Source: an uncultured Ruminococcus sp. (GTDB taxonomy: Bacteria > Bacillota > Clostridia > Oscillospirales > Ruminococcaceae). Taken from it: a DNA stretch of 45,834 bases. The notes beneath the pieces were generated by a model. That model ran no database searches and was not told the origin of the DNA. It saw only the letters and a program-made list of their open reading frames with translations. How positions within the stretch are numbered: the stretch's first letter is position 1; each line of letters starts with the position of its first letter. The stretch is from NCBI GenBank assembly GCA_947169885.1, contig CAMVRM010000023.1, positions 1 through 45,834 on the forward strand, read 5' to 3'. The position numbers were made by a program, and so were the translations under genes. Positions 12,734-14,110 of this stretch are shown one piece after another.

Positions 12734-12762
12734 TTGACAACACCGCATAAAAATGCTATAAT
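12734..12762 (+). promoter_or_regulatory. Promoter of first Rpn gene
   Basis: Consensus TTGACA (12734-12739), 17-bp spacer, TATAAT (12757-12762), about 20 bp before the start. Confidence 0.85.
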
Positions 12763-12782: not shown

Positions 12783-13616
12783 GTGAGACCGTTGATAATC
12801 AGACATGAAGACCTCATAGGAACATTCGAGCAGAAACAGCGGCTCGTGGAGCAGTTCAACCTCATGGATGATAATTTTTTCGCCGTTGTCATGGAGGACA
12901 AGGCAGCCTGTGAGTACCTGCTGTGCGCTCTGCTGGGCTTTGAGATAAAGGTCATAGAAACAAAAGCACACTACGATATAGCGAACCTTAAAGCACATTC
13001 GGTGGAGCTTGACGTTCTTGCCGAGGATGCAGAGGGCAAGCTGTACAACATTGAGATACAGGTCGAGGACAGGGACAACCACCCGAAGCGTGTACGCTAC
13101 TATCAGGCGGCGGTCGACTGGTCGCTGTTCCAAAAGGGCAGAAAATATGAGGAATTGCCCGAATTGTATCTGCTGTTCGTGTCGGCGTTCGATATGTTCG
13201 GGGACGGACTTATCAGATACGACATTGACCGCAAAATAAGACAGACAGGCAAGACCGCCGACAACGGAGTACATGAGATATATTTCAACACAAAGGTCGA
13301 TGACGGCTCGCAGCTCAGGGAGCTGATGAAGTTTTTCAACGAGAGCAGCGCCGATGATATGCGCTTTGGTGCGCTTTCGGAAGCAGTGAACCGTCAGAAA
13401 CGCACAGCGAAGGGAGTTGAGCATATGTGCAAGGCAGTCAGGGATTATGTCACAGAAAGAGAGCAGGAGATCAGGCTCGAAAGCAAACTCGAAGGCAAGA
13501 TCGAAGGCAAAATTGAATCTGTAAATAATCTCCTGCAAAACGGCTTCAAGCTTGAAGAAGCACTAAGGCTCATAGGCTTGACCGAACAGGAGTATAAGTC
13601 CTACAAGCCGTCATAA
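12783..13616 (+). CDS. Rpn family PD-(D/E)XK nuclease (recombination-promoting nuclease / putative transposase)
   Basis: A 277-residue protein of the Rpn/PDDEXK_2 family. Family members in E. coli are DNA endonucleases tied to recombination and phage defence. The active-site region is visible: VELDVLAEDAEGKLYNIEIQ gives an Asp and the family's ExQ. The C-terminal ~65 residues are charged, with EGKI repeats, and end in LLQNGFKLEEALRLIGL. The start is GTG 12783 or TTG 12792; AGAGGG at 12775-12780 favours the latter by spacing. Codon 215 is an in-frame ATG (13425) preceded by AAGGGAG at 8 bp, a candidate internal start for a separate C-terminal product. A partial copy of the 3' end follows at 13627. 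Confidence 0.85.
   Translation: MRPLIIRHEDLIGTFEQKQRLVEQFNLMDDNFFAVVMEDKAACEYLLCALLGFEIKVIETKAHYDIANLKAHSVELDVLAEDAEGKLYNIEIQVEDRDNHPKRVRYYQAAVDWSLFQKGRKYEELPELYLLFVSAFDMFGDGLIRYDIDRKIRQTGKTADNGVHEIYFNTKVDDGSQLRELMKFFNESSADDMRFGALSEAVNRQKRTAKGVEHMCKAVRDYVTEREQEIRLESKLEGKIEGKIESVNNLLQNGFKLEEALRLIGLTEQEYKSYKPS
13425..13616 (+). CDS. Candidate intragenic C-terminal product of the Rpn gene
   Basis: An in-frame ATG at 13425 with AAGGGAG ending 8 bp upstream would give a 63-residue protein (MCKAVRDYVTEREQE...) identical to the Rpn C terminus. Small proteins translated from inside rpn genes have been reported in E. coli as inhibitors of the full-length nuclease. That this happens here is inference from the ribosome site, from the same arrangement in the second Rpn gene, and from the downstream copy that preserves exactly this frame. 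Confidence 0.45.
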   Translation: MCKAVRDYVTEREQEIRLESKLEGKIEGKIESVNNLLQNGFKLEEALRLIGLTEQEYKSYKPS

Positions 13617-13626
13617 ACGTTTTATC

Positions 13627-13819
13627 GGGAGTTGAGCATATGTGCAAGGCAGTCAGGGATTATGTCACAGAAAGAGAGCAGGAGATCAGGCTCGAAAGCA
13701 AACTCGAAGGCAAGGTCGAATCCGTAAACAACCTCCTGCAAAACGGCTTCAAGCTGGAAGAAGCACTAAGGCTCATCGGCTTGACCGAGCAGGAGTATAA
13801 AACCTACAAGCCGTCATAA
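13627..13819 (+). CDS. Detached duplicate of the Rpn 3' end, with intact 59-residue frame
   Basis: Starting 10 bp after the Rpn stop, 193 bp repeat the last 205 bp of the gene with a few substitutions and loss of one 12-bp EGKI repeat unit. The copy begins exactly at the internal ribosome site (GGGAG at 13627-13631, 8 bp before ATG 13640). It keeps an open frame of 59 residues (13640-13819) ending TYKPS, while the nuclease domain is missing. It may be only duplication debris. However, its extent and open frame suit a free-standing copy of the small C-terminal protein, possibly co-transcribed with the nuclease. A terminator follows at 13842. Confidence 0.55.
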
Positions 13820-13841
13820 ACTCACAAACAATAGCATGAAA

Positions 13842-13876
13842 AAGGCAGTCTGTAAATAAACAGGCTGCCTTTTTTA
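13842..13876 (+). terminator. Terminator after Rpn locus
   Basis: AAGGCAGTCTG and CAGGCTGCCTT form a stem with one G-U pair, followed by six T. Confidence 0.85.
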
Positions 13877-13995
13877 CCCAAAACAATACTGTTTTATTGC
13901 CGAGGGTATGAAAATACTCTTGCGGCAGATACTACAAGTTTCTTCACCTGCCGCACCGTACCATTATCTAAACTTGCATCTGCTTTAAAATACAC

Positions 13996-14032: not shown

Positions 14033-14037
14033 AAGAA

Positions 14038-14110
14038 AGCTGATACCCGGATTCGAACCGGGGACCTCATCCTTACCAAGGATGTGCTCTACCTACTGAG
14101 CCATATCAGC
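14038..14110 (-). tRNA. tRNA-Thr (GGT anticodon)
   Basis: The minus strand folds as a cloverleaf. The acceptor is GCTGATA/TATCAGC. The anticodon stem CATCC/GGATG holds loop TTGGTAA, giving anticodon GGT. The T arm contains GGTTCGAATCC. The discriminator is T, and CCA is not encoded. Confidence 0.95.

Follow-up and report, generated by a model that had tools for sequence, protein, structure and literature searches.

An Rpn gene specifies both a toxic nuclease, RpnL, and its antitoxin, RpnS, which is made from an internal start (Zhong et al. 2023, PMC10327210). Four-residue repeats of variable number occur in the first RpnS helix, and adding one repeat to either RpnC partner abolishes inhibition while adding it to both restores it, a repeat rule that rests on one engineered pair (RpnC, plus one repeat) (PMC10327210). 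Some Escherichia coli strains carry a separate second RpnS gene behind rpnE (ypaA, the protein of which has been detected) or behind rpnC; the same paper ascribes these downstream copies to an origin from the adjacent gene, also mentions loss when the N-terminal domain is fused to the rpnS region, and names small DUF4351 (PF14261) proteins as stand-alone RpnS in some species (PMC10327210). Its Results and Discussion do not address a repeat mismatch between a detached tail and its neighbour, and among the best-ranked matches in the open-licence literature we found no other paper on Rpn tails.

We analysed a stretch of 45,834 nucleotides of contig CAMVRM010000023.1 (C23) from an uncultured Ruminococcus sp., hereafter the window, in which an rpn gene is followed by a detached RpnS frame, an arrangement of the kind described from E. 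coli (Zhong et al. 2023, PMC10327210). As at E. coli rpnE–ypaA (rpnES) and rpnC–rpnCS, a nuclease with an intragenic RpnS has a second RpnS frame within about 100 bp, this second frame keeps a ribosome site and a start, and the number of four-residue repeats varies (PMC10327210). Unlike the E. coli systems, the window's locus belongs to another phylum, and its detached tail matches a second RpnL of the same genome rather than its neighbour.

The rpn gene of the window and its detached tail

The rpn (RpnL) gene occupies positions 12783–13616 of the forward strand and encodes 277 residues from a GTG start, with TTG 12792 also possible. Its product matches TIGR01784 over residues 28–272 (94.8 bits, cut-off 52.1) and PF12784 over residues 64–140 (38.1 bits, cut-off 27.4), the latter being a nuclease domain call from sequence only, and is thus assigned to the Rpn-family PD-(D/E)XK nucleases/toxins. 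The last 205 bp of the gene (13412–13616, forward strand) form a predicted attached RpnS tail, with a putative intragenic ribosome site, GGGAG, at 13412 and an in-frame internal start, ATG 13425, from which 63 residues would be translated; this is the intragenic toxin–antitoxin layout of Rpn genes. The attached tail contains EGKIEGKIES, one four-residue repeat more than the detached copy.

After a spacer of 10 bp (13617–13626, forward strand), the detached RpnS gene extends from 13627 to 13819 on the same strand. It opens with GGGAG, followed by 8 nt and then ATG 13640, and stays open for 59 codons (LEGKVES...KTYKPS). The 205 bp of the parent correspond to 193 bp here, one 12-bp unit fewer. 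An ungapped repeat search paired 13412–13505 with 13627–13720 (94 bp, 99% identity), which should lie far above chance, and 13479–13618 with 13682–13821 (87% identity). The initial annotation had described a repeat of 205 bp placed 10 bp downstream, starting at the internal ribosome site and keeping an open 59-codon frame from ATG 13640, and this was confirmed to the base, as was its account of one 12-bp unit plus scattered changes: besides the in-frame 12-bp deletion, the copy differs from the attached tail by 9 substitutions, 7 of them synonymous and 2 non-synonymous. The two tails are identical in the 13 bases before the start and in their first 25 codons.

The detached product aligns with the tail of TIGR01784 (positions 224–269, 23.8 bits, E 3.5e-5), a score short of the full-length cut-off, which a tail by itself should not reach. 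It matched no Pfam family at E up to 1 and so differs from the DUF4351 proteins, with which it would share the role of a stand-alone RpnS, in having no PF14261 match. With its homologous open frame, putative ribosome site and start, 13627–13819 fits a stand-alone downstream RpnS gene of the ypaA kind. Searches with the full Rpn protein against PDB sequences gave no match at E up to 1, those with the tail gave two rows (E 0.25 and 1) that we took as chance, and PADLOC gave no match at E up to 0.01.

Local signals suggest that both frames are expressed together. A sigma-70-type promoter-like site lies at 12734–12762 (forward strand), with 12 of 12 consensus bases, a 17-nt spacer and a TG before the −10 element; the region contains 5 promoter-like sites against 2.9 expected, and only this one scores 12/12. 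A terminator scan of the region found none between the rpn frame and the detached frame. Behind the detached copy, a hairpin at 13839–13874 with 15-nt arms, the 3' arm of which runs into six T, is a probable terminator; it was absent from the output of the terminator scan and was seen through an inverted-repeat search and in the sequence itself. Given the promoter-like site before rpn, the absence of a terminator between the frames and the T-run hairpin after the copy, a single transcript for rpn and the detached tail is likely, with the limit that consensus matches give no evidence of function. The initial annotation had seen an antitoxin-type gene rather than random debris, and the ribosome site, the open frame, the mostly synonymous changes and the placing of promoter- and terminator-like sites around both frames, with none between them, support that view. 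The inverted-repeat search found no pair bracketing the detached copy. A mobile-element origin of the repeat was considered and rejected, since searches of the own genome with the two flanks returned, the C8 unit described below aside, one weak match of 38 bases on contig C9.

On one side of rpn lie what we take to be thiamine genes, and on the other a tRNA-Thr gene (window 14036–14110) with what are presumably cotJ genes. In two of six relatives examined from the genus (L289 and L290) this tRNA-Thr is present and gene order to its right is conserved; homology stops at the tRNA 3' end, with no match to the left. The other four have no tRNA-Thr there. Because the relatives' homology ends at tRNA-Thr and nothing to its left matches, rpn appears to adjoin a variable tRNA-flanking site. 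Among 13 genomes of the genus, an rpn gene of the close subfamily occurred only in the own genome, the best match in the others being 34% identical. A scan of genome contigs for relatives returned one locus, 55% identical and with a single tail; a scan of viral contigs returned none. The nearest named relative is L017, from Ruminiclostridium.

A second rpn gene on contig C8

The same genome holds a second full-length rpn gene, with a single tail, on contig C8 (L295, covering C8 46000–65500). Its neighbours on the two sides are a RepA_N initiator (PF06970, 99.5 bits) and, on the other, ParA/ParB proteins (L295 7038–11898 in all), so that the C8 Rpn toxin sits, as judged from these neighbours, inside a replication and partition module of plasmid or ICE type. 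The core DNA of the C8 and window genes is identical over at least 600 bp, and their 5' flanks differ at 8 of the first 50 bases, a combination suggesting recent gene conversion, with copying of one into the other by the assembler as the less likely alternative.

The tail of the C8 gene has 59 residues, the length of the detached copy, and shares 58 of 59 residues with it; over the 59 codons the two differ at 4 nucleotides (3 synonymous, 1 non-synonymous). By comparison, the attached window tail has one repeat more than the C8 tail and 7 further nucleotide differences, 1 of them non-synonymous. The flank behind the C8 gene is homologous to that behind the detached copy (13822–13970, forward strand), the hairpin region included, and by reading, the 8-bp stretch that follows TAAAC behind the attached tail has no match to this common 3' flank. 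At the last codons the attached tail and C8 both read KSYKPS and the detached copy KTYKPS, a pattern that makes the relationships of the tails mosaic rather than a clean pair. On the strength of the length and sequence of the C8 tail and the common 3' flank, we regard the detached tail as another tail of the locus and not a fresh copy of its neighbour. It goes with the 3' flank of the locus and is perhaps the older of the two, the attached tail looking like the newcomer. This order is not proven, as single-tail forms could arise by loop-out: C8-type genes could be loop-out products of a two-tail gene, which yields the same end products.

The ratio pN/pS was 0.08 between the detached copy and its parent and 0.09 between the detached copy and C8; a dN/dS of 0.21 for the window in the survey computation described below includes badly aligned residues before the start, and the pN/pS values are the clean ones. 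We rejected dN/dS as proof of selection on the detached copy, because the differences are too few (those from C8, 3 synonymous and 1 non-synonymous, cannot prove selection after detachment) and because divergence may predate detachment.

The tail lengths bear on which toxin the detached tail could pair with: 59 residues in the detached copy, 63 in its neighbour and 59 in C8, so that the repeat number in the tail varies between the window and C8. If a detached tail served the adjacent toxin, its repeat number should match that of the neighbour, and here it does not. Since repeat number sets the pairing of RpnS and RpnL, the 59-residue protein should spare its neighbour and block the C8 RpnL. 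Two suggestions of the initial annotation part company at this point. The idea that the neighbour's own antitoxin is becoming a separate gene finds no support in a repeat number and 3' flank that belong to the C8 tail allele, nor in the survey below, in which detached tails elsewhere match their neighbours no better than do tails of different loci; its other suggestion, a shifted specificity, agrees best with the C8-type repeat number and flank.

Detached tails in other rpn loci

We surveyed rpn loci through searches of 13 genomes of the genus, 247 of the family, 394 of the order and 398 of the phylum, partly overlapping sets with one genome per species. The survey comprised the returned loci plus 40 stretches from the family search, 6 from the order search and 94 from the top matches listed in the phylum search, a selection that favours strong matches and is no random draw. 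From 239 rpn ORFs with a length of 180 aa or more, 7 were dropped because the model match stopped short of the N-terminus or the sequence was identical, and 21 more because the frame was not closed or less than 400 nt lay downstream, leaving 211; repeat entries of one place and all E. coli loci are excluded.

A detached tail within 1 kb downstream on the same strand followed 25 of these 211 rpn genes (29 tails), compared with 2 upstream (L197, L226) and 0 on the opposite strand in the same test. In four loci (L009, L118, L154 and L209) one rpn gene is followed by a tandem pair of detached tails, a small tail array. Detection in the survey needs an open frame of 25 aa; in a tblastn count made without that requirement, 24 of 26 detectable downstream copies were open, which again speaks against debris, the remaining two being partial (L219) or carrying a stop in the aligned stretch, ahead of the detached frame (L068). 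Detached copies at 38–52% identity were still open in L142, L009, L041, L074, L167 and L243. The shared Met was present in 26 of the 29 detached tails and absent from 3, and a ribosome-site-like tetramer preceded it in 17 of these 26; among 860 other internal Met codons, 147 had one. Together, the open frames and these tetramers suggest that detached tails are mostly intact, translatable frames. A simple dN/dS could be computed for 26 of the 29 pairs and stayed under 0.5 in 24, the exceptions being L004 (0.67) and L065 (0.50); some of these alignments take in poorly aligned edges, and the divergence may predate detachment.

Some detached tails extend further than that of the window. A third, distant rpn gene of the own genome (contig C83, L004 159–1703) likewise has a detached tail behind it; this tail is extended far upstream and exceeds its parent by 28 residues of QQGI-type repeats. 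In L195 and L167, which come from one genome (G996), the detached copies reach well upstream of the repeat region and have 16–24 more residues there than the parent.

We then compared tail lengths by counting gaps automatically over the last 70 residues, using as reference attached tails of different loci that share at least ten 4-mers (148 pairs, one dropped for a short alignment). For pairs with at least 70% identity, length differed in 12 of 16 comparisons of a detached tail with its neighbour and in 50 of 67 between attached tails of different loci; for all pairs the figures were 24 of 29 and 110 of 147. L004 and L079 were scored equal in these automatic counts, and longer alignments give +28 and −8. 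Adjacency thus brings no better length match than is seen between tails of different rpn loci, as judged from these alignments, and the similar rates leave a selected mismatch unsupported. That detached tails always differ from their neighbours in repeat number, as a small first set had suggested, was refuted by cases of equal length: read from alignments, the first detached tail has the helix length of its neighbour in 7 of 25 loci (L065, L062, L056, L009, L061, L209 and L243), so that a share of detached tails may be cognate. The two helices are also nearly identical in sequence in L061 and L062.

The E. coli loci gave a similar picture. They were hand-picked from 60 (rpnE) and 40 (rpnC) evenly spread matches, plus MG1655, and are interrelated, two of the rpnE cases being almost one allele; one rpnC locus, L101, was chosen by length and has no second tail. 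The detached tail differed in length from its neighbour in 7 of 7 sampled double-tail rpnE loci and 5 of 5 rpnC loci, and the attached tails differed between strains in 63 of 78 rpnE pairs and 40 of 45 rpnC pairs. All six sampled single-tail rpnE strains have an ending of the detached ypaA type together with the ypaA 3' flank, whereas in all seven sampled double-tail strains the attached tail has a different ending. Among single-tail rpnC loci, L107 has the protein ending and next bases of the detached tail of double-tail L103, and MG1655 and L109 have another ending and another flank. The single-tail and double-tail forms of rpnE thus show the same topology, in their sequences, as C8 and the window, and the single-tail strains may be read in either direction, as the state before insertion of a new tail or as loop-out products. 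In RefSeq, ypaA is flagged as a pseudogene and RpnE is annotated as inactive, which makes ypaA a weaker model, although the YpaA protein has been detected (PMC10327210); a number of the other detached E. coli frames are flagged as partial.

Proposed function of the detached tail

The explanation we favour, with a probability of roughly 0.55, is that 13627–13819 encodes a stand-alone RpnS, co-transcribed with RpnL, that is another tail allele of the locus, non-cognate to its neighbour and with the C8 toxin as predicted target. To what is observed, namely the anatomy, the common flank and tail, the recurrence in other loci and the mismatch statistics, this explanation adds translation, binding, inhibition in trans and a history of exchange as conjectured steps. 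Recombination between tails would take place within the conserved segment that separates the internal start from the repeats; it would join an incoming tail to the nuclease core and leave the former tail behind it, together with its ribosome site, start and 3' flank. Either a tail with an extra four-residue repeat would have been inserted between the core and the old tail, or the locus may long have been two-tailed. The leftover would be a free RpnS of different repeat number; the 59-residue frame is probably such a working, if putative, RpnS. Its product would not block the adjacent RpnL, which has two EGKI-type units, and would dimerise with and block an RpnL bearing the same short tail, of which the C8 RpnL is the one known here.

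We weighed three other accounts of the copy. A tail displaced by exchange may persist intact but unselected, with no present function and soon to be lost, which we consider unlikely. The coexistence of single- and double-tail E. coli strains indicates that exchange and loss are frequent, and with 4 differences from C8 the window copy is too young for a signal of selection; on the other hand, copies at 38–52% identity elsewhere are still open, and the ribosome-site motif in 17 of 26 tails and a dN/dS below 0.5 in 24 of 26 computable pairs are not what an unselected leftover would lead one to expect. Slightly less likely still is that the copy is a separate gene for the antitoxin of its neighbour, an extra dose that would raise the ratio of RpnS to RpnL. 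The direct adjacency, the probable common transcript, first 25 codons that are those of the neighbour, and the equal helix lengths in 7 of 25 survey loci are all in keeping with such a role. Yet the copy is one repeat below its neighbour and agrees with C8 in tail and flank, inhibition in RpnC was lost on a mismatch of one repeat (PMC10327210), and detached tails match the length of their neighbours no better than do tails of different loci, with 0 of 12 double-tail E. coli loci matching.

An assembly artefact, in which two near-identical rpn genes were misassembled so as to yield the tandem tails or to pair flank and tails wrongly, is very improbable. The C8 and C23 cores are identical over at least 600 bp with differing flanks in a genome of 98 contigs, so that 5' flanks could have been swapped; such a swap would keep the double tail and change the promoter preceding the window rpn gene. 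Joining at a shared repeat, we reason, leaves the junction TTTTATC|GGGAG unexplained, and the same architecture recurs in 24 other survey loci and in complete E. coli genomes.

A non-cognate stand-alone RpnS with a target elsewhere in the genome, the explanation favoured for the window, can be extended to the family, though only tentatively and with more doubt than belief: Rpn loci may be tail-exchange loci, whose displaced, translated orphan antitoxins guard against RpnL alleles other than that of the neighbour. Recombination within the helix that directly follows the internal start would exchange the specificity tail, leaving sometimes two orphans per locus, and the RpnL targets would be former selves, recombinants and Rpn toxins on incoming elements, such as the copy beside RepA_N and ParAB. 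Orphan cdiA-CT/cdiI and rhs-CT/rhsI modules are likewise displaced 3' ends of toxin genes kept downstream, where homology permits refusion, and retained immunity or reserve tips have been proposed as their roles (PMC4927057). Unlike CDI and Rhs, Rpn acts inside the cell, and the displaced part is an antitoxin or specificity tail rather than a toxin–immunity pair; we use the resemblance as one of working and claim neither homology nor descent.

From the repeat rule, and from length matches with neighbours that are no better than those between loci, many stand-alone RpnS proteins are predicted not to be antitoxins of the adjacent toxin. At stake is whether stand-alone RpnS is a waste product of tail switching or forms a second immunity layer directed at foreign Rpn toxins. 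If Rpn loci do exchange tails in this way, they would be the intracellular counterpart of the orphan immunity modules of CDI and Rhs systems.
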